From positions 434,001-498,000 of the forward strand of contig WSYJ01000030.1 in NCBI GenBank assembly GCA_020186115.1: a DNA stretch of 64,000 bases, read 5' to 3'. A program made the position numbers and the translations under genes. Positions 2,429 through 46,734 of the stretch are shown piece after piece (the first letter of the stretch is position 1; the number at the start of each line of letters is the position of its first letter). The notes under the pieces were generated by a model that saw only the letters and a list, made by a program, of their open reading frames with translations, searched no databases and was not told where the DNA came from. The DNA comes from Histomonas meleagridis. Taxonomy: Eukaryota > Parabasalia > Tritrichomonadida > Dientamoebidae.

Positions 2429-5400
2429 ATGAAAGTAACAGTAAGAATCGAAGAAGCTGTTGGACTTGATGAAAATCGAGCGCACTCTGTTTACTGTGTT
2501 GCAAATTTTGAAGACCGGAATACAAAGAGAAAAACAAAAATACAACAAGGATGTGATCCAGTATTTAATCAGGATTTTACATTTCAGAATATAGACAATG
2601 ATTCTGTTTTGGTGGTACAGCTTTATGACGCAGTTACAAATGGAACTGATGAAAAAATTGGAATTTCAAGAATACCTTTCAAATCTCTTCAATTAGATAA
2701 ACCAATTGATGATTGGTTTGATATTCTTGAGATAGATGGTAAAAATGAAGCTAAATTACATCTTGTTATTTCAGCACAAAATAAATCTGATTCAGAAGAT
2801 TTTGACAATTTCTTAGAATCTGTTGATTTTGACTCAATATTAGGAAAAAATAATTCAGATTCAGAAGAGGAAGATATTGATATCGAAAAACTTTTGAAAG
2901 ATTCAGATGATGACGATGATTATGATATATTAAAACAACTCGCTGAAGAAGATGATGACGAAGAACCAAATCAAAGTGACGAAGAGAAACTAAGGGCTGA
3001 GGAAGATGAAAGATTAAGGGCAGAAGAAGAAGAACGCCTCAAAGCTGAAGAAGAGGCAAGATTAAGAGCTGAGGAAGAGGCAAGACTTAAAGCTGAAGAG
3101 GAAGCAAGACTTAAAGCAGAGGAAGAAGCAAGACTTAAAGCAGAGGAAGAAGCAAGACTTAAAGCAGAGGAAGAAGCAAGACTTAAAGCAGAGGAAGAAG
3201 CAAGACTTAAAGCAGAGGAAGAAGCAAGACTTAAAGCTGAAGAGGAAGCAAGACTTAAAGCTGAGGAAGAAGCAAGACTTAAAGCTGAAGAGGAAGCAAG
3301 ACTTAAAGCAGAGGAAGAAGCAAGACTTAAAGCAGAGGAAGAAGCAAGACTTAAAGCAGAGGAAGAAGCAAGACTTAAAGCTGAAGAGGAAGCAAGACTT
3401 AAAGCTGAGGAAGAAGCAAGACTTAAAGCTGAGGAAGAAGCAAGACTTAAAGCAGAGGAAGAAGCAAGACTTAAAGCTGAGGAAGAAGCAAGACTTAAAG
3501 CTGAGGAAGAAGCAAGACTTAAAGCTGAGGAAGAAGCACGTAAGAAGGCTGAAGAAGAAGCAAGACTTAAAGCTGAGGAAGAAGCACGTAAGAAGGCTGA
3601 AGAAGAAGCAAGACTTAAAGCTGAGGAAGAAGCAAGACTTAAAGCTGAGGAAGAAGCACGTAAGAAGGCTGAAGAAGAAGCAAGACTTAAAGCTGAGGAA
3701 GAAGCACGTAAGAAGGCTGAAGAAGAAGCAAGACTTAAAGCTGAGGAAGAAGCACGTAAGAAGGCTGAAGAAGAAGCAAGACTTAAAGCTGAGGAAGAAG
3801 CACGTAAGAAGGCTGAAGAAGAAGCAAGACTTAAAGCTGAGGAAGAAGCAAGACTTAAAGCTGCGGAGGAAGCCAGACTTAAAGCAGAGGAGGAAGCACG
3901 TATTAAAGCCGAAGAAGAAGCACAAAGAAAAGCTGAGGAAGAGGCAAGATTAAGAGCCGAAGAGGAAGCACGTAAGAAGGCTGAGGAAGAAGCAAGACTT
4001 AAAGCTGCGGAGGAAGCCAGACTTAAAGCTGAAGAAGAAGCAAGATTAAGAGCTGAAGAGGAAGCCAGACTTAAAGCTGAGGAAGAAGCACGTAAGAAGG
4101 CCGAAGAAGAACGCCTTAAAGCTGAGGAAGAGGCACGTATTAAAGCAGAAGAGGAAGCACGCAAGAAGGCTGAAGAAGAGGCAAGACTTAAAGCTGAGGA
4201 GGAAGCACGTAGAAAGGCCGAAGAAGAAGCGCTCATGAAAGCAGAAGAAGAAAAACTCAGAGCTGAAGAAGAAGCCCGGATAAAAGCCGAAGAAGAAGAA
4301 TTTCTGTTGTTCGAAGAAAGCAGAAAGAAAGCCAAATCCGAAGAATTCAGTGACTCTGATTCAGAAACCGGGTTAATAAATGAGGAAGATGCGAAGTCAG
4401 AAGGAGATGAGTCCACATCATCAGTGCATAAGACAGAATCAGCGCCCATTAAACCCAAAGAAGAACCGAAACCAATTGCAGCCAAAGCGGCATCACATTC
4501 ACGAACCAAACCCAAAGAATCATCAGCACATTCAGTCGGCAAAAACCAAAAGTCCGAACCAAAGCCAAAAGAAAGGCCAATTAAGAAGTCCATCGAACCT
4601 AAAGCTAAAGATCTCAAATCTCGAAAGAGCGAAACAGTCAAAAGCAAACTCAATGAAAGAACAATTCCAAAGCGAACAGAGAAGAACACCGCCAAACCCT
4701 CCAGCATACCAATCTCCACCACTCGCAAAAGCGTCAGTTCCATTTCAAGCTCAACGAAAACAACAAAGCGCTCAACCACTACATCTGTTTCATCAATTCC
4801 AAAGCGAACTACAACAACTAATACCAAAGCACAGTCGAGTCGTATTCCACGTACATCGCAAACTACAAATACTGAATCAACGCTCACGATTACAATCATT
4901 AGTGCGGATAATTTGCAAGCGCCAACATCAGATCGATGCGATCCGTTTTGTCGTATCAAGTTATCGAATCAAGATCGAATTGAGGAGACAGAAGTTGTTG
5001 AGAACACATTAATTCCACAATGGAATGAAACATTTACATATACAATAACTGACGTTGAAGATGCGTCAATTGAAGTTGATATATATGATCAGAAGCAAAT
5101 AATTGAAGAAGGGTTAATCGGTTCAATATCATTACCATTATCACAAATCAATAACAGTTTCGATGGTTGGATTCCACTTATTCCGGATGGAAGTGGACGT
5201 ATACATATCAAAGTGATACTTAATTTACCGCCCAAAAAAGTTTCTGTTACAACTACAAAACGCGCAACGAACACTGGCGTCACACTTAAAAAGAATTCCA
5301 AACCTAAAGTTATTCAACAAAAGTCAAAAGTACAAAGTAAATCATCGATATCTGATGTTAGAAGTATCACAACGAGAAGTATTACTCCATCAGATACTAA

Positions 5401-10101: not shown

Positions 10102-10174
10102 GGGACTCTAGCTCACCTGGGAGAGCACACGACTGAAGATCGTGAGGTACGTGGTTCGAGTCCGCGGAGTCCCA
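10102..10174 (+). tRNA. tRNA-Phe (GAA)
   Basis: A full cloverleaf can be folded by eye. The acceptor stem pairs GGGACUC (10102-10108) with GAGUCCC; the D stem is GCUC/GAGC. The anticodon stem is CACGA/UCGUG around the loop CUGAAGA, giving anticodon GAA. The T arm CGUGG-UUCGAGU-CCGCG supplies a B box (GGTTCGAGTCC). The discriminator base is A at 10174. There is no intron and no encoded CCA. A run of T follows at once, the usual RNA polymerase III terminator. Anticodon loop C32, G34 and G37 are the bases normally modified in tRNA-Phe. Confidence 0.97.
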
Positions 10175-16517: not shown

Positions 16518-17594
16518 ATGAGAGTAATAATATCAGTTGAAATTGGGAAATCAATGAATTCATTTGGAACTTCTGCATTTGGATCATGTTCATCCATAAA
16601 AAATATTACAATACCTAATTCAGTTACATCAATTGGAAATTATGCATTTAGTTCTTGTTCTAATTTAGAAACAGTTATTATTGGAGAAAATGTCACATTA
16701 ATTGGAGATTCTGCATTTTCCGATTGCATTAATCTGAAGTGTATTTATTTTACAGGTTATAGATCGCCAACATCTTTCGGTGCAAATGTATTTTCTGGTG
16801 TACCAACGCAATATGTAATGACATCATATTTATATCAAAACACGACATTTGGACCACTTAATATAATCTATAATCTGGCTGATGAATGTGATATTTATCT
16901 TTGGCCAACTCTTACATTTACGAAATCAAACACATTTTCGAATACATTTTCTAAATCGAATACATTCTCTAACACATTCTCTAAATCAGATACATTCTCT
17001 AAATCAAATACATTTTCTAATACAAATACATTTTCTAGTTCGAACACATTTTCTAGTTCAAATACATTTTTTAATACAAATACATTTTTTAATTCAAATA
17101 CATTCTCTGATACAAATACATTTTCTAATTCGAATACATTTACGGCTTCATTAAATTCAAGTGTATCGTATACTGTAACTATGATTCATTTTTATTCCGT
17201 TACAAATACGTATATCATCAACACATATTTATCGAACACATTCATTAGATCAAGTTCCATTTATATCGCCACCAAATTAATATTTTATAATTACACAATA
17301 TATCAGTATTCGACATATTATAATATTTATACCGTATTTTATACAATAATTCATACTAAATCACAACACCAAAATATTTCAATGAATCTGTTGATTGGTA
17401 TCATTTGCGGCACAATTGCATTGGTACTTATTATTGTCGGAATTGTTGTATTCATTATTCGACATAGCAAACAACAAAATTCAAGTTCAGACAAAAGTTT
17501 CGATATTTTGTCAGCAGAAGATAAAGGCGAACAAATCGAATGTGTTAAAGCTGAATTAAATGACTATGTTAATGAAGAAGACCAATGGATATAA
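16518..17594 (+). CDS. BspA-like leucine-rich-repeat surface protein, copy A (5' end broken)
   Basis: The 358 residues contain three BspA/TpLRR units (GSCSSIKNITIPNSVTSIG, YAFSSCSNLETVIIGENVT, SAFSDCINLKCIYFTG; residues about 20-100). Then come a conserved cap, a low-complexity Ser/Asn/Thr/Phe stalk built from repeats of SNTF/KSNTF (about 137-212), a Tyr/Thr-rich linker, a membrane segment (LIGIICGTIALVLIIVGIVV) and a roughly 40-residue acidic cytoplasmic tail. BspA-like proteins are the largest candidate surface families of trichomonads and may bind host or microbial surfaces. The ATG at 16518 lies inside a repeat, and the frame is open upstream only to a TAA at 16455, so the signal/anchor part is severed. 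Bases 16602-17055 are almost identical to the inverted copy at 21308-21761. Confidence 0.7.
   Translation: MRVIISVEIGKSMNSFGTSAFGSCSSIKNITIPNSVTSIGNYAFSSCSNLETVIIGENVTLIGDSAFSDCINLKCIYFTGYRSPTSFGANVFSGVPTQYVMTSYLYQNTTFGPLNIIYNLADECDIYLWPTLTFTKSNTFSNTFSKSNTFSNTFSKSDTFSKSNTFSNTNTFSSSNTFSSSNTFFNTNTFFNSNTFSDTNTFSNSNTFTASLNSSVSYTVTMIHFYSVTNTYIINTYLSNTFIRSSSIYIATKLIFYNYTIYQYSTYYNIYTVFYTIIHTKSQHQNISMNLLIGIICGTIALVLIIVGIVVFIIRHSKQQNSSSDKSFDILSAEDKGEQIECVKAELNDYVNEEDQWI
16602..17055 (+). repeat. Left arm of a 454-bp inverted duplication
   Basis: Reading 21761 down to 21308 on the minus strand gives the same 454 bases with only two mismatches that I can see (near 16613 and in VTL/VTS IGDSAF). Flanks diverge abruptly on both sides. 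Confidence 0.9.
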
Positions 17595-20984: not shown

Positions 20985-22178
20985 TTACAGATCAAACAGA
21001 AATGATAATGACATTCCAATTTTCTTTCGTTTGAATTTCATTCGATAATAAAATTGTATAAAAATAAGAATAAAAACTATAATAACTTGAATAAACAATG
21101 ATCGTATAATCATAATAAATAAATTTTGTTTTAATATATGTTGTGATGAATTAAGAATTGAATATGAATATGAATTCATTTGTGTTTCATATATCGTAAT
21201 CGTTTGTGTAATAGAATATGAATATGTTAAAGTACTCATAAATGTTAATGAAGAACTAATGAAAAATGATTTTGTAAATGTATTTGTATTAGAAAATATC
21301 TTCGAATTAGAAAATGTGTTCGAACTAGAAAATGTATTTGTATTAGAAAATGTATTTGATTTAGAGAATGTATCTGATTTAGAGAATGTGTTAGAGAATG
21401 TATTCGATTTAGAAAATGTATTCGAAAATGTGTTTGATTTCGTAAATGTAAGAGTTGGCCAAAGATAAATATCACATTCATCAGCCAGATTATAGATTAT
21501 ATTAAGTGGTCCAAATGTCGTGTTTTGATATAAATATGATGTCATTACATATTGCGTTGGTACACCAGAAAATACATTTGCACCGAAAGATGTTGGCGAT
21601 CTATAACCTGTAAAATAAATACACTTCAGATTAATGCAATCGGAAAATGCAGAATCTCCAATTGATGTGACATTTTCTCCAATAATAACTGTTTCTAAAT
21701 TAGAACAAGAACTAAATGCATAATTTCCAATTGATGTAACTGAATTAGGAATTGTAATATTATTTAATGATGAACAATATTGAAATGCAGCACCTCCAAT
21801 TTCATTTAAATTATCACTTAGTTGTATTATTTCTAAGGAATAACAATTATAAAATGCAGAACTTCCAATTGTTGTAACTGAATTACTCATATTAATCGAT
21901 TTAATTGTTGTCCATTCATTAAATGTATTATTTGGAATATTATTAATTAAATCATCAATAATCACATGTTCTGCTATATTTTTATATGTGCCATCAAATT
22001 CATCTTCTTTTGTTATTGTAAGTGTATTCGTTATATTATCAAATGTTTGAAAAGTATTTATAAAAAATACAAAAAATATTATAAATAAATTACTTTTCTT
22101 GTTTTCTTTGATAAAAATATTGTTTGAATTATCATGATTTCGAATGAAAATTATTATGATAATGAAAATAATAGTCAA
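20985..22178 (-). CDS. BspA-like leucine-rich-repeat surface protein, copy B (no ATG at expected start)
   Basis: The 397-codon frame codes an N-terminal hydrophobic anchor (NLFIIFFVFFINTFQTF). Then come five BspA/TpLRR units (for example MSNSVTTIGSSAFYNCYSLE, then QLSDNLNEIGGAAFQYCSSL), the same cap and SNTF/KSNTF stalk as copy A, and a membrane segment with a basic stop-transfer (YYRMKFKRKK). The frame begins at a TTG preceded by an in-frame TAA; the first in-frame ATG is 21890, which would delete the anchor and first repeat. The end is also odd, because a better tail lies just downstream in another frame. The gene may therefore be a pseudogene or be recently damaged. Bases 21308-21761 are nearly identical to copy A. 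Confidence 0.6.
   Translation of the reverse strand: MTIIFIIIIIFIRNHDNSNNIFIKENKKSNLFIIFFVFFINTFQTFDNITNTLTITKEDEFDGTYKNIAEHVIIDDLINNIPNNTFNEWTTIKSINMSNSVTTIGSSAFYNCYSLEIIQLSDNLNEIGGAAFQYCSSLNNITIPNSVTSIGNYAFSSCSNLETVIIGENVTSIGDSAFSDCINLKCIYFTGYRSPTSFGANVFSGVPTQYVMTSYLYQNTTFGPLNIIYNLADECDIYLWPTLTFTKSNTFSNTFSKSNTFSNTFSKSDTFSKSNTFSNTNTFSSSNTFSNSKIFSNTNTFTKSFFISSSLTFMSTLTYSYSITQTITIYETQMNSYSYSILNSSQHILKQNLFIMIIRSLFIQVIIVFILIFIQFYYRMKFKRKKIGMSLSFLFDL
21308..21761 (-). repeat. Right arm of the 454-bp inverted duplication
   Basis: Matches 16602-17055 in inverted orientation with two visible mismatches. It covers the last leucine-rich units, the cap and the start of the SNTF stalk. Confidence 0.9.
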
Positions 22179-27462: not shown

Positions 27463-29716
27463 CTACTCGAGATGGGGGTAATGACTTTTTGAACACCCAA
27501 AATTGTATAAGAATTTTCTTTTCAATCGATTATGATATAACACGTCATTAAAATAATCCAGGGCAGGGATATTGATACCTTCGTGTTCAAACATCAAATT
27601 AACAATTTCAATGTTTCCTTCAACACATGCTTTCAGAAATGCTCTTAAAAAATTCAAATATTCATCGCTTGATATTTTGGAAAACAAAATTATCAAAATA
27701 AATTTTAAATAAAACAAATAAATATTTTCAGCATTAATATCAATTCCTTCTTGTTCAAGAAGTAATTTAAATATTTCTGTATGACCATTTTTAGATGCTA
27801 AAATAAGTGCTGTACTAAATAATTTAAATAATTTCCAAATATTATTTTGAAATATTAAATGTTTAAAATAAATATTAAATAAAACAAATAAATATCTTTA
27901 GCATTAATATCAATTCCTTCTTGTTCAAGAAGTATTTTAACTATTTCTATATTGCCATTTTCAGATGCATAAATAAGTGCTGTATAAAATAATTTAAACA
28001 ATTTCCAAATATTATTTTGATATATTCCAAAATTATTAAAATAAATATTAAATAAAACAAATAAATATCTTTAGCATTAATATCAATTCCTTCTTGTTCA
28101 AGAAGTAATGAAACTATTTCTGAATGACCATTTTTAGATGCATACATAAGTGCTGTTTCAAATATTTTAAATAATTTTCAAATATTATTATTCAAAAAAA
28201 ATATTAAATAAAACAAATAAATATCTTTAGCATTAATATCAATTCCTTCTTGTTCAAGAAGTAATGAAACTATTTCTGTATGACCTTTTGAAGATGCATA
28301 CATAAGTGCTGTATAAAATATTTTAAATAATTTCTAAATATTATTTTAAAATATATAATTATTAAAATAAATTTCAAATAAAACAAATAAATATCTTTAG
28401 CATTAATATCAATTCCTTCTTGTTCAAGAAGTATTTTAACTATTTCTGTATGACTATTTTCAGATGCATACATAAGTGCTGTTTCAAATAATTTAAATAA
28501 TTTCTAAATATTATTTTGAAATCCAAAATTATTAAAATAAATTTTAAATAAAACAAATAAATATCTTGAGCATTAATATCAATTCCTTCTTGTTCAAGAA
28601 GTAATTTAACTATTTCTGAATGACCATTTTCAGATGCATAAATAAGTGCTGTTCTAAATATTTTAAATAATTTCTAAATATTATTTTAAAATATATAATT
28701 ATTAAAATAAATTTCAAATAAAACAAATAAATATCTTTAGCATTAATATCAATTCCTTCTTGTTCAAGAAGTATTTTAACTATTTCTGTATGACTATTTT
28801 CAGATGCATACATAAGTGCTGTTTTAAATATTTTAAATAATTTCCAAATATTATTTTGAAATATTAAATGTTTAAAATAAATATTAAATAAAACAAATAA
28901 ATATCTTTAGCATTAATATCAATTCCTTCTTGTTCAAGAAGTAATTGAACTATTTCTGTATGACCATTTTCAGATGCATACATAAGTGCTGTTTCAAATA
29001 ATTTAAATAATTTCTAAATATTATTTTGGAATATAAATTTCAAATAAAACAAATAAATATCTTTAGCATTAATATCAATTCCTTCTTGTTCAAGAAGTAA
29101 TTTAACTACTTCTGTATGGCCATATTCAGATGCATACATAAGTGCTGTTCTAAATATTTTAAATAATTTCCAAATATTATTTTGAAATATTAAATGTTTA
29201 AAATAAATATTAAATAAAACAAATAAATATCTTTAGCATTAATATCAATTCCTTCTTGTTCAAGAAGTAATGAAACTATTTCTGTATGACCTTTTGAAGA
29301 TGCATACATAAGTGCTGTTCTAAATATTTTAAATAATTTCTAAATATTATTTTGGAATATAAATTTCAAATAAAACAAATAAATATCTTTAGCATTAATA
29401 TCAATTCCTTTATGTTCAAGAAGTAATTTAAATATTTCTGTATGACTATTTTCAGATGCATAAATAAGTGCTGTTCTAAATATTTTAAATAATTTCCAAA
29501 TATTATTTTGAAATATTAAATGTTTAAAATAAATATTAAATAAAACAAATAAATATCTTTAGCATTAATATCAATTCCTTCTTGTTCAAGAAGTAATTTA
29601 AATATTTCTGTATGACCATTTTTAGATGCTAAAATAAGTGCTGTACTAAATAATTTAAATAATTTCCAAATATTATTTTGAAATATTAAATGTTTAAAAT
29701 AAATATTAAATAAAAC
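27463..29716 (-). repeat. Array of 12 ankyrin modules plus terminal module, each preceded by an AT-rich spacer
   Basis: On the minus strand, thirteen spacers alternate with coding modules. Twelve modules are exactly 99 bp (29547-29645, 29377-29475, 29221-29319, 29051-29149, 28895-28993, 28725-28823, 28555-28653, 28385-28483, 28215-28313, 28059-28157, 27886-27984, 27716-27814), each coding one 33-residue ankyrin repeat of the type TALMYASENGHTEIVK then LLLEQEGIDINAKDIY. The last (27646-27463) codes a diverged ankyrin repeat and a stop. Spacers are 71,71,57,71,57,71,71,71,71,57,74,71,69 bp, all start GTTTTATTT and all contain stops if read through. Modules 6 and 8 are identical and modules 3 and 9 code the same residues, showing block duplication. 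With spacers removed, the frame joins the DUF3447 head to the final stop (853 residues). Confidence 0.85.
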
Positions 29717-30906
29717 AAATAAATATCTTTAGCATTAATATCAATTCCTTTTTGTTTTAAAACGTATTCAACAAGTTCAATATTTCTTGATCCTGCTGAA
29801 AATACCAATATATCATGCGGAATTGAATGTTCTTTAAGAAAATATTCAACTAAAAAAATATTTCCAATAATTGCTGCTTCATTAATAATATCATTATTGA
29901 TTTCCATTCCTTCTTTAACTAAAAATGAGAATATTTCGGAGTTATGATATGAAATACAAAGATTTCCTAATTCTTCTAAATTGTTGATTTCTTTTAATTT
30001 ATTATCATAAAAATATTTAAAGATATCATTTCGATGAAATTCAATTGCTGTTTCATATGCTTTATCAAATGATGAATGATTTTGCTCACACAAATGAATG
30101 ATTTCTTCATTTCCTCCTGCAACTGCATATTTACCTGTGTTTTCTACTTTTGCATTGTTAATAAGTAAATACTTAAAACATTTAACAGATCCAAAAAATG
30201 CTGCATAATCAATTAATGAAACATTATCTCCATTTATAAAATCACATCTTTCATAAAGTGACTTTGGAATTTTCTGATTATAATCAAAGTTTGTTTGCGA
30301 TGAAATTTCTTGAAGTTTTTCAACATTATCATTCCATATAACTTTTGAAATTTCTGAATGATTAATTCCTTCATGAATTAATTTTTTATGAAGCTCAAAA
30401 TTGTTCTTTGAAAGTTCTTCATAACTTAAAGAGGTATAAGACGGAACTTCTTGGATTTCAATTTCTGTTTTTGGTTGGTAGTGCAAAAAATAGCGATAAT
30501 TATAACTGACAACTTTTTTTGGATCCATCAAATTGTGTTCAACTAATGCATTAAGAAGATAAATTGATTCTTTTCGGCTTGAAAAATGGATAAGATACTG
30601 TTTAAAAACATTAAAAAAATTTGTTTTGAATTTTTTTCTTTCTTCAAAATTTTCAACTTCTTTTAAAAAATTTAAATACAGATCAGAGTCACGCATTCGG
30701 AATGCAAGAACTGTGTACACCATTTGAGTGATAGCAATGTTAAAAGATAATGAATAACTTTCATCAAATATGTTAATTAATGAATTTAATGATTGTGTAA
30801 TATTTTCTTGATTTAAGGTAAAAATTAATTCCTTAATCAATAGGAGTTTTTCCCATTCGTTATGAAGTTTTTGATTTTTATTTTTCTCGATGACAGACAT
30901 CCTCAT
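29686..30906 (-). CDS. DUF3447-type head domain of a trichomonad ankyrin protein
   Basis: The continuous frame begins upstream at a TTG, so I take the ATG at 30906 (MRMSVIEKNKNQ) as start; ATG 30900 is also possible. About 406 residues: a helical N-terminal region, then the conserved DUF3447/ankyrin block NVSLIDYAAFFGSVKCFKYL, a repeat-like KAYETAIEFHRNDIFKYF, NEAAIIGNIFLVEYFLKEHS, and one full ankyrin repeat ending GIDINAKDIY. It then runs 30 bp into the first spacer and stops. Removing the spacer continues the protein into the twelve-module array. Ankyrin proteins mediate protein binding; specific partners are unknown. It is paralogous to the broken gene at 23.3-24.4 kb. An ACCGTTA motif lies about 100 bp upstream. 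Confidence 0.8.
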   Translation of the reverse strand: MRMSVIEKNKNQKLHNEWEKLLLIKELIFTLNQENITQSLNSLINIFDESYSLSFNIAITQMVYTVLAFRMRDSDLYLNFLKEVENFEERKKFKTNFFNVFKQYLIHFSSRKESIYLLNALVEHNLMDPKKVVSYNYRYFLHYQPKTEIEIQEVPSYTSLSYEELSKNNFELHKKLIHEGINHSEISKVIWNDNVEKLQEISSQTNFDYNQKIPKSLYERCDFINGDNVSLIDYAAFFGSVKCFKYLLINNAKVENTGKYAVAGGNEEIIHLCEQNHSSFDKAYETAIEFHRNDIFKYFYDNKLKEINNLEELGNLCISYHNSEIFSFLVKEGMEINNDIINEAAIIGNIFLVEYFLKEHSIPHDILVFSAGSRNIELVEYVLKQKGIDINAKDIYLFYLIFILNI

Positions 30907-43674: not shown

Positions 43675-46600
43675 ATGCATTCAATCAAAGTTTACCACAA
43701 AATGGAGCCAAATTCTGCTATTCAGAAGTTCAGAGAATGGGCTCTACTTTCTTATGTAAATCAAGAAGTCAGGAAAATATTAAAAATCGAAAAGCTAAAT
43801 GTTTCTCGATTTTTAATCGATATTGCAAGAAATTCTGATTCAATTGATTCTTTCATTTCTAATCTTCAACAAAAGAAAGTATCAATCCCAATAGATTTAA
43901 CCAAATCAGTCTTTGAGATAGTTAAACGTCATGATGCTCAACATATTCAAGTTGATTCTACTATTCCTGTCAATATTCCACAACCTCAACCGACTGAACC
44001 ACCTAAGATTGGAGAAATTATGAGAGGGCGTGTTACATCTGTTAATGCTCATGGTGCATTTATTAAACTTGAAGATTATCCAGGAAAGCCAGTCGGTTTT
44101 TGCCATAAATCCGAGATGAAATCCGATCCCATGTCCACCATCACACCATTTGAAATCCTTAGTACAGGTGAAAAAGTATATGTTCGAGTTATTGAGTCAA
44201 TTTCCAATTCTATTGCCTTATCTATTCGTGGCATTGATCAAATTTCTGGCAAAAGCATTGAAGAAGTATCTTATACATCTAGTAAAACATATGATTCAGG
44301 TCCACGTACACATCGAATGAAATCGCCAGATCGTTTTGAACTCGAACAACTTCAAAATTCTGGTGCCATTAAATCCAGTGACATGTTTGATTATTCTGGT
44401 GACTATGGTCTATTATCTATGGCTACAAATATTGAAGAAGATTTCGAAATCGCACTTAACACTAATGTGCCTCCATTTTTAGCCGGCTTAAAGCGACAAA
44501 AGCGTACACATTCTCCAACTAAAGTACAAATAAATCCTGAAGGATCATTAGCACGTGGCGCACGAGAAGCAGCGCGTTTAACTAAAGAGCGCCAAGAACA
44601 ACAACGATTACAATCGATTGCAATTACACAAGGTAATGTACCCGGACTTTTAGATGATGAAACGCCATCAGTTATACCCAAAAACTTATCCAAATTACCT
44701 GAATGGAAGCGCCAAACATTTCAATCATTTGGACCATTACATAAACGGAAGACCGAGTTACCGATTGCTAATTATAAAGAGCGTATCTTTGACATGTTAA
44801 AAAAGCATCGCGTGTTTATCTTAGTTGGCGAAACAGGTTGTGGTAAAACTACGCAAATACCACAATACTTATATCAATGGGGAATTACAAATAAGAAAAT
44901 TGCTGTTACACAACCACGTCGAGTTGCTGCGATTAGTGTTGCTAAAAGAGTAGCGCAAGAAATGGGTACAGTTGTTGGAGATATTGTAGGGTATTGTGTT
45001 CGATTTGAAGAATGTACATCTAAGAACACAATGATCAAATATGTTACTGATGGTATGTTACTTAAGGAATGTTTAAGTGATCGATCATTAAGTGAATATG
45101 GAGTTGTAATGTTAGATGAAGCACATGAACGTACTATTCATACTGATGTATTATTTGGATTAATGAAAGAAATACTTGAAACAGATTCAGATTTAAAAGT
45201 CATTGTAACATCTGCGACACTTCAACAAGAGAAATTCTCCGAGTTTTTCTTTGATTGTCCAGTGTTAAATATCCCTGGTCGAACATTCCCAGTACAAACA
45301 TCTTATTTAAGTAAGCCGACAACTAATTATTTAGATACTGCTATTCAAACTGTTCTATCATTACATTCATCAGAGCCTATGCCCGGAGATATCTTATTAT
45401 TCTTAACAGGACAAGATGATATTGATAGTGCATGTGAAATTATATATCAAAAATCCAAAGCAATGGAAGCACGTTGTGGGACATTAATAGTATTACCTAT
45501 TTATTCAACATTACCAAGTGAACAACAATCAATGATCTTTGAAGAAACGCCTCCAGGTAGTCGTAAAGTCGTTGTCGCTACAAACATTGCAGAAACTTCA
45601 ATTACTATTGATGGAATTCGCTATGTTGTTGATCCAGGATTTGTGAAAGAGTTATGGTATGATCCTAAAATCGGAATGGACACATTAAAGATAGTGCCTA
45701 TCTCTAAAGCTGCTGCAAATCAACGTAAAGGTAGAGCAGGTCGAACAGCTGAAGGTAAATGTTTACGTTTATATACTGAAGAAGCGTTCAACAAAGAAAT
45801 GAAGGATTCAAGTGTACCTGAAATCCAACGTTCGAATATGGCAATGATTGCATTACAATTGAAGGCTATGGGCATAGAAGATTTAATCAACTTCGAGTTT
45901 ATGGATAAGCCACCAACACATACTATCATTGATGCATTAGAACAACTTTATGTTTTAGGCGCGTTAGATGAAGAAGGTAATTTAACATTACAAGGTAATC
46001 GAATGGCGCAATTCCCATTAAGTCCACAACTATCAAAGATGTTAATCACTTCAGCTGACTTTGGATGTAGTGAAGAGATCATTACTATTGTTGCGATATT
46101 AAGCGTACAAGGTATATGGTATCGACCACGTCAACAACAAGCTAACGCTGATGCAATGCACGCGCGTCTTAATCGTGAAGAAGGTGATCATTTAACATTG
46201 TTACACGTGTATAGAGAATGGGTGAAAGCGAATCGTTCTGAACAATGGTGTCGTGATAACTTCGTTCATTGTCGATCATTACGACGTGCGGAAGATGTGC
46301 GGAACCAATTGAAGGGTTTAATGGAGAGATATCATTTGCCTTTAAGGTCTTGCGGTAATGACATGCAACTCGTGCTTAAGTCTATTGTCTCAGGATTCTT
46401 CGCTAAGGCTGCAAGAAAAGAAGGACAAAAGGGTTACCAAACATTGGTGGATAACCATTTGGTGCATATGCACCCGGGAAGCGCATTGTTCGGAAGAGAC
46501 CCGGATTACGTGGTGTACCACGAGCTGGTGAACACATCGAAGGAATTCATGAGAAATGTGGTGGCGATAGAGCCAAAGTGGCTCGTGGAACTGGCGCCTG

Positions 46601-46734
46601 CATTCTATAGAAAGGCTTCGCCGTCGGAAATAACAAAGAGGAAACGTAACGAACATTTGACACCGCTGCATGATAACTTGAGAGAACATGAGAGAGATTG
46701 GAGAATTACGGATCAAAGAATTGTAAGGTTGTGA
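43675..46734 (+). CDS. PRP22: DEAH-box splicing helicase DHX8/Prp22
   Basis: Of 1019 residues, the N-terminal helical region (REWALLSYVNQEVRKILKIE, FLIDIAR) matches the DHX8 N-domain. An S1 RNA-binding domain follows at about 112-185 (IGEIMRGRVTSVNAHGAFIK). The helicase core shows GETGCGKTTQIPQ near 386-398, TQPRRVAAISVAKRVA, LDEAHERTIHTD near 480, SATL near 512, TNIAETSITIDGI and QRKGRAGRTAEGKC near 682, then the HA2/OB-fold C-terminal domains (VDNHLVHMHPGSALF). The S1 plus DEAH layout is diagnostic. Prp22 releases spliced mRNA from the spliceosome and proofreads 3' splice-site choice. An alternative start is ATG 43702 (MEPNSAIQKF). The 3' end is richer in G+C than the rest. Its presence shows that the organism splices some pre-mRNA. 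Confidence 0.93.
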   Translation: MHSIKVYHKMEPNSAIQKFREWALLSYVNQEVRKILKIEKLNVSRFLIDIARNSDSIDSFISNLQQKKVSIPIDLTKSVFEIVKRHDAQHIQVDSTIPVNIPQPQPTEPPKIGEIMRGRVTSVNAHGAFIKLEDYPGKPVGFCHKSEMKSDPMSTITPFEILSTGEKVYVRVIESISNSIALSIRGIDQISGKSIEEVSYTSSKTYDSGPRTHRMKSPDRFELEQLQNSGAIKSSDMFDYSGDYGLLSMATNIEEDFEIALNTNVPPFLAGLKRQKRTHSPTKVQINPEGSLARGAREAARLTKERQEQQRLQSIAITQGNVPGLLDDETPSVIPKNLSKLPEWKRQTFQSFGPLHKRKTELPIANYKERIFDMLKKHRVFILVGETGCGKTTQIPQYLYQWGITNKKIAVTQPRRVAAISVAKRVAQEMGTVVGDIVGYCVRFEECTSKNTMIKYVTDGMLLKECLSDRSLSEYGVVMLDEAHERTIHTDVLFGLMKEILETDSDLKVIVTSATLQQEKFSEFFFDCPVLNIPGRTFPVQTSYLSKPTTNYLDTAIQTVLSLHSSEPMPGDILLFLTGQDDIDSACEIIYQKSKAMEARCGTLIVLPIYSTLPSEQQSMIFEETPPGSRKVVVATNIAETSITIDGIRYVVDPGFVKELWYDPKIGMDTLKIVPISKAAANQRKGRAGRTAEGKCLRLYTEEAFNKEMKDSSVPEIQRSNMAMIALQLKAMGIEDLINFEFMDKPPTHTIIDALEQLYVLGALDEEGNLTLQGNRMAQFPLSPQLSKMLITSADFGCSEEIITIVAILSVQGIWYRPRQQQANADAMHARLNREEGDHLTLLHVYREWVKANRSEQWCRDNFVHCRSLRRAEDVRNQLKGLMERYHLPLRSCGNDMQLVLKSIVSGFFAKAARKEGQKGYQTLVDNHLVHMHPGSALFGRDPDYVVYHELVNTSKEFMRNVVAIEPKWLVELAPAFYRKASPSEITKRKRNEHLTPLHDNLREHERDWRITDQRIVRL

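Follow-up and report, generated by a model that had tools for sequence, protein, structure and literature searches.

Introns are known to be few in trichomonads and related eukaryotes. In the mitochondrial coding sequence of Magnusiomyces, many short inserts, the byps, are skipped by ribosomes. Trichomonad spliceosomal introns (types A and B) have GT-AG borders and a branch site fused to the 3' end, number one or at most two per gene and, according to passages of PMC12316389, have in type A a length range that takes in 68-74 nucleotides (nt). The abstract of PMC4770533 describes the nonconventional introns of euglenids as having variable, non-canonical borders and a route of removal that is still open. 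For Histomonas meleagridis, passages of PMC8529796 report a genome of 43.4 Mb with 28.7% GC in the virulent strain. Here we present an analysis of an ankyrin gene array of this organism, located on the minus strand at 27463-30906 of a 64,000-nt window (the whole stretch of DNA analysed, positions 434,001 to 498,000 of contig WSYJ01000030.1), in which AT-rich spacers separate the repeats, together with the genome-wide family to which it belongs.

Layout of the array and its family

Length arithmetic and the reading of each piece on the minus strand resolved the array into a head, 12 modules, 13 spacers and a terminal module (Table 1). Each of the 12 modules that follow the head is exactly 99 base pairs (bp) long and open, and the spacers preceding them measure 71 nt (eight), 57 nt (three) or 74 nt (one). 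Head, modules and terminal module add up to 1191 + 1188 + 183 = 2562 nt or 854 codons, and the frame arithmetic is consistent. The head matches DUF3447 and ankyrin in Pfam, and the two single modules tested both match Ank above the cut-off, as expected of ankyrin repeats. An earlier, sequence-only reading of the window had described twelve exact 99-bp modules, a joined frame and spacers varying from 57 to 74 nt, and piecewise measurement confirmed the modules and the spacers (57, 69, 71 and 74 nt) while length arithmetic agrees with the frame; its head of 1190 and terminal module of 184 nt become 1191 and 183 nt. That all spacers introduce stops, as it also held, is true of the array and not of each spacer: a stop in the module-continuing frame occurs in eight of the 12, and spacers 7, 8, 9 and 11 stay open and reach the next module out of frame.

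In the genome, exact anchors joining a module end to a module start over a gap of 61-91 nt recovered 1,729 junctions, against no spacer-free junction at a gap of 3-30 nt (gaps of 31-60 and above 91 nt lay outside this search). The 29-base module start has 1,148 genomic sites at up to 3 mismatches, and its reversed control none. The head yielded 107 genome matches, some of them fragments, of which 94 have no internal stop (105 of 3,129 candidates were scored). The window array thus belongs to a family that shares this layout throughout, with 1,729 spacers or more, and is not the single odd gene it had seemed.

Related proteins were viewed in 18 protein records, and the eight chosen for alignment are 41-49% identical to the window head. 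Five of the 18 (P0002, P0003, P0006, P0010 and P0011, all among the eight), judged by the protein records alone, end just after the ...K-x-I/V codon at which the spacer starts in the window array. P0005, whose identity to the 101 genome matches listed does not exceed 55%, reads 31 codons that align with a 71-nt spacer and ends in a frame that enters the next module wrongly; its first spacer equals the window's in length and phase. P0016 has the short in-frame spacer type. A protein search with the naturally open stretch of one locus (L015) had generic ankyrin proteins among the matches listed (120 of 480). One deposited Histomonas family member (P0018, on contig C120), named caskin, differs from the array in its tail and in carrying a proline-rich insert, and its gene model may be in error.

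Selection against stop codons in the modules

For comparison across the family, 397 units were cut from 75 loci; 285 of them (73 loci) are exactly 170 bp, and anchors placed 392, leaving 5 unplaced. Modules are free of stops in 391 of the 397 units. Within the 285 units, the module codons (1-93) contain 2 stops and 2,915 codons that a single step would turn into one, whereas the spacers, read in the frame of the next module, contain 132 stops and 2,510 such codons (Fisher, 1e-40). The CAA at module position 61 is TAA in 1 unit (CAA in 257), and the CAA at spacer position 135 is TAA in 25 (CAA in 217). Because modules and spacers have diverged equally between loci (0.164 and 0.176 differences per base, 3,000 random pairs), the missing module stops reflect selection and not youth. 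Among the 392 placed units, module length is unchanged in 381, changed by a multiple of three in 8 and changed otherwise in 3; the change is -6 in two units, by best matching. An array of pseudogenes would show stops and frameshifts spread evenly, unlike the 2 stops against 132 and the 8 length changes in multiples of three against 3 that are not. The sequence-only reading had taken the lack of module indels in the window as a sign of constraint; there it is weak evidence, since the modules are young duplicates, and it is the family counts that bear the idea out. Identical peptides are encoded by modules 3 and 9, and by modules 6 and 8.

The stretch under protection does not coincide with the 99-bp module. 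The codon directly before the module is varied, yet it is a stop in none of the 285 units, where column frequencies predict about 32, and in none of all 397. On the other side, stops occur from position 94 onward, in 7 units at 94, 3 at 97, 1 at 100 and 11 at 103, and the modules of these 22 units are all stop-free. Protection therefore covers the codon in front of 'TAL' and the 31 codons after it, to about '...NAKDI', and the preceding TTT may or may not belong to it. This places the joint a few bases off the 99-bp borders that had been proposed; the shift leaves the frame arithmetic unchanged.

The modules are protein-coding and selected against stops, and this holds far less, or not at all, for the spacers. 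This agrees with an intron-like element in the wide sense, in which a constrained frame is interrupted by spacers that tolerate stops, with next-frame stops somewhat below those of shuffled sequences. It supports the conclusion that a product spanning the modules must skip the spacers, and the frame evidence makes such a product probable. The functional product proposed in the sequence-only reading is upheld to this extent. Recoding of TAA as glutamine or of TGA as tryptophan was rejected, as the module CAA and TGG codons are free of both except for one TAA, and plain translated linkers were rejected on the stops in 26 of 54 in-frame spacers. DNA elimination with TA borders was ruled out by frame arithmetic only.

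The ends of the arrays were scanned in 73 cases, of which 22 run off their locus and 51 are visible. A script found the last module without a recognised spacer in 36 of the 51 and with one in 15; it overlooked the diverged terminal module of the window. By eye, about 9 arrays end within a spacer and 4 on the border (L011, L013, L031 and L032, which end alike, at least some of them with a common flank), and the rest within a module. Judged in this way, 38-42 of 51 ends fall in a module and not in a spacer (compared with the share of length, p = 0.012 to 2e-4, the ends being partly non-independent), a bias that weakly backs a product reaching across the modules. In many terminal modules the frame is kept and ends after the second ankyrin helix, soon after 'EIVKLL', as an ankyrin C-terminus would.

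How the spacers may be passed

The explanation that we prefer, with a probability of about 0.5, is that the spacers would be removed from RNA like introns and without the usual splice signals. The array would then hold the repeats of one ankyrin protein with a DUF3447 head, modules and a stop-bearing terminal module, the spacers being excised ahead of translation. Removal would take about 71-74 nt from each 170-bp unit, at AT-rich borders near ...GATATT/TATTTG...AAATTA(TTT)/NNN ACA (slashes marking the borders), and the copies would have come from duplication of a unit that already bore its spacer. From the frames and the splice signals described below, we infer that removal at the RNA level would follow a route other than ordinary GT-AG splicing. 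The wider proposition, that Histomonas and its relatives use a non-GT-AG route to excise from the RNA of a single large family more than 1,700 near-uniform spacers, each about 70 nt long and each belonging to one ankyrin repeat, is more tentative and falls clearly short of an even chance; the sites would be about three times as numerous as the introns annotated in the genome. A gene family with an intron-like spacer in every repeat and without the splice signals of its lineage would imply that excision has a second route or that the spliceosome is much less strict, and that long ankyrin proteins are encoded where reading frames now seem to end at about 400 residues.

Several observations weigh against removal from RNA. 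Passages of PMC8529796 give 573 introns for the virulent strain, scarce and at most one per gene, and the word ankyrin is absent from its main text. The pN/pS of the modules is 1.06, falling to 0.78 when the five most variable codons are left out. A value near 1 had been named in the sequence-only reading as speaking against a functional product, and by itself it would do so. Spacers read as codons give 0.91-1.17; since modules and spacers are alike near 1, the measure is uninformative here, and the stop-codon test carries the argument. Diversifying surface positions, together with a base composition that hides synonymous change, may account for the module value. Among non-standard long spacers, 27 of 39 length changes are multiples of three (p = 5e-6 against one third, in a tally of units and not of independent events), for which a freely removed spacer has no need; our guess is slippage of 3- and 9-nt repeats. 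Spacer length is nearly uniform (292 of the 392 placed units, 73 loci), which could mean that the unit has spread recently or that removal obeys a rule of length. In two loci with longer units (L008, 198 bp; L002, 190 bp) an inner spacer piece of about 20 nt occurs three and two times, respectively, which shows that spacers can lengthen through tandem duplication within themselves.

Also unfavourable is the lack of a conserved RNA fold that could bring the spacer ends together: RNAalifold returned an empty structure for 267 spacer sequences, and pair covariation within the spacers gave noise only. The mean z was -0.5 in 60 spacers and -0.3 in modules. Finally, next-frame stops in the spacers, with the protected codon omitted, number 132 against 166 in column shuffles (standard deviation (sd) 5), and module-frame stops 206 against 217 (sd 7), as might be seen if the spacer is partly translated or once was. 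The next-frame deficit is mild and could stem from the shared descent of the units or from past coding.

The most serious alternative, which we nevertheless hold to be unlikely, is that the head works alone as a protein of about 400 amino acids, its end lying within spacer 1 or a little beyond, and that the arrays behind it are untranslated and either in decay or kept as a cassette store for gene conversion. The stop-free heads (94 of 107 matches) and the module pN/pS near 1 agree with it. So does the onward reading of 32 heads with anchors set in this analysis, in which the frame stops within the first spacer in 20 and passes it in 12, mostly to enter the next module out of frame. Untranslated modules should, however, collect stops as spacers do, and at equal divergence they have 2 against 132; their length changes (multiples of three in 8 cases against 3 others) and the many terminal modules that keep the frame up to a stop after the second ankyrin helix point the same way. 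A cassette store could likewise protect modules, so that the module evidence only lowers the probability of this alternative.

Ordinary spliceosomal introns with very weak signals are improbable. Canonical introns in Histomonas have the form GTATGT...CTAACACACAG, and a positive control was made with two 3' branch-site 12-mers, which gave 8 genomic matches (5 + 3; reversed controls 1 and 2). Seven of the 8 sites were fetched; a script located GTATGT 59-101 nt upstream in five, and of the other two, one shows GTATTT at 50 nt, as judged by eye, and one no 5' motif. As a background rate, 12 of 1,222 random points have GTATGT no more than 110 nt away. An earlier search for GTATGT...ACTAACACACAG, with 0 matches, used too small a gap and is superseded by the 12-mer searches. 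The U2 small nuclear RNA (snRNA) retains GTAGTA, which together with the canonical-looking introns indicates a spliceosome; a search for U1 found none, its controls being equally silent. Loose signals are plentiful in the spacers: TTTGTTTTATTT, which contains GT, is present in 185 of 397, and the loose 5' motifs GYAYGY/GTWYWD of the Trichomonas vaginalis paper match somewhere in 305 of 397.

The stricter signals of trichomonad introns, a GTATGT-like 5' end with [AT]CTAAC...AG at the 3' end, are lacking in the spacers. Neither CTAAC nor the Histomonas 3' intron motif occurs in any of the 397, which counts against the ordinary splicing that the sequence-only reading had allowed for; GTATGT occurs in 2 and CTRAY in 12. 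The sole conserved AG (in ACAG) sits behind the protected codon, and a GT joined to it would give 94-nt exons and break the frame. The protected codon itself contains AG (AGA or AGT) in 20 of 285 units, with no AG conserved at that border, and no frame-compatible fixed pair of GT and AG was found. Among the 54 short units, TTTGTTTTATTT is present in 7 and any GT near the 5' border in 11. If the spacers are removed from RNA, the absence of these signals makes an unusual route likely.

Two side observations concern splicing. The window that holds the array also carries, at 43675-46734 (+), a DEAH-box helicase with S1, HA2 and OB domains, a domain set which we take to be that of the splicing helicase Prp22/DHX8. 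Near position 1500, three loci (L043, L046 and L047) contain canonical-looking introns without a long open reading frame (ORF) after them and with TGATGA/CTGA-like boxes (by eye); such boxes are expected in introns bearing small nucleolar RNAs, which these introns resemble in that respect.

Slightly less probable than weakly marked spliceosomal introns is passage during translation, the ribosome shifting by -1, hopping or reading through stops. Long spacers would need a net -1 and short ones none, and the preference of spacer length changes for multiples of three fits this. One -1 shift leaves some open path in 234 of 285 units, where column shuffles give 212 (sd 5), or 225 with the protected codon omitted. 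At the best fixed site 185 units are open, where shuffles give 137, or 155 with that codon omitted (sd 5). Among loci with at least 4 units, 9 of 37 lack any next-frame stop where 4.1 are expected (p = 0.0045), the units of a locus being alike by descent. A programmed frameshift would have one fixed site and an open new frame, whereas the best site leaves 100 of 285 units closed; in addition, 26 of 54 short in-frame units contain stops, as do window spacers 3, 5 and 10, which are of in-frame length. Translating the present arrays across their spacers would therefore require a hop or stop read-through, and a hop over the whole spacer is possibly compatible with the stop evidence.

An assembly artefact, with one base lost per unit through long-read homopolymer error, is disfavoured and very improbable: the assembly is nanopore-based and short-read polished (passages of PMC8529796) and arrays are hard to polish, but the separate record P0005 has equal spacer length and phase, a base added at one fixed place would leave stops in 100 of 285 units, and 26 of 54 short units contain stops.

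Window features and comparison with known systems

Table 1. Components of the ankyrin array, with positions in the window
Feature	Position	Strand	Length	Remarks
Head (DUF3447 + ankyrin), 5' coding part	29716..30906	-	1191 nt	ATG at 30906; last anchored codon ends at 29716; ORF continues to stop in spacer 1 (406 amino acids, 29686-30906)
Spacer 1	29645..29715	-	71 nt	
Ankyrin module 1	29546..29644	-	99 bp	Pfam-tested
Spacer 2	29475..29545	-	71 nt	
Module 2	29376..29474	-	99 bp	
Spacer 3	29319..29375	-	57 nt	length in frame, contains TAG
Module 3	29220..29318	-	99 bp	
Spacer 4	29149..29219	-	71 nt	
Module 4	29050..29148	-	99 bp	
Spacer 5	28993..29049	-	57 nt	length in frame, contains TAG
Module 5	28894..28992	-	99 bp	Pfam-tested
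Spacer 6	28823..28893	-	71 nt	
Module 6	28724..28822	-	99 bp	
Spacer 7	28653..28723	-	71 nt	open in module frame, enters module 7 out of frame
Module 7	28554..28652	-	99 bp	
Spacer 8	28483..28553	-	71 nt	open in module frame, out of frame
Module 8	28384..28482	-	99 bp	
Spacer 9	28313..28383	-	71 nt	open in module frame, out of frame
Module 9	28214..28312	-	99 bp	
Spacer 10	28157..28213	-	57 nt	length in frame, contains TGA
Module 10	28058..28156	-	99 bp	
Spacer 11	27984..28057	-	74 nt	open in module frame, out of frame
Module 11	27885..27983	-	99 bp	
Spacer 12	27814..27884	-	71 nt	
Module 12	27715..27813	-	99 bp	
Spacer 13	27646..27714	-	69 nt	length by subtraction; 3' half diverged
Terminal module (diverged) + C-terminus	27463..27645	-	183 nt	shares module frame; ends at TAG (included); no internal spacer; read by eye

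Elsewhere in the window, a 24-bp tandem repeat of about 50 copies (2996-4207, +) lies within an ORF of 1181 amino acids with C2 domains. An 18-bp repeat forms two separate arrays (16937-17141 and 21276-21426) that look mutually reverse-complementary. The only Rfam match in the window at gathering score is a tRNA gene (10102-10174, +).

Among the titles and abstract openings listed for the Histomonas, trichomonad-intron and ankyrin literature, none describes such spacers; full text was covered as passages of PMC12316389, PMC8529796, PMC11978803 and PMC10063853. Like trichomonad spliceosomal introns, the spacers are short, AT-rich, non-coding and inside protein genes; they differ in being without the 3' motif and in standing in every repeat of the arrays examined. 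The Magnusiomyces byps are likewise short inserts in coding sequence, whereas the spacers lie in nuclear genes and have given no positive evidence of a hop. Non-canonical borders liken the spacers to the nonconventional introns of euglenids and to the noncanonical introns of diplonemids (PMC12621601). In contrast to both, the Histomonas spacers form one homologous set in one gene family, and the secondary structure that joins the ends of euglenid introns has no conserved counterpart in them. The DUF3447/ankyrin proteins of Tritrichomonas have a head domain and ankyrin repeats homologous to those of Histomonas. One of them (P0025) has adjacent repeats in one frame without such inserts; a second (P0031) has a short insert between repeats and a third (P0027) a hydrophobic tail after a repeat, and their sequences suggest that a related spacer feature in Tritrichomonas is possible.

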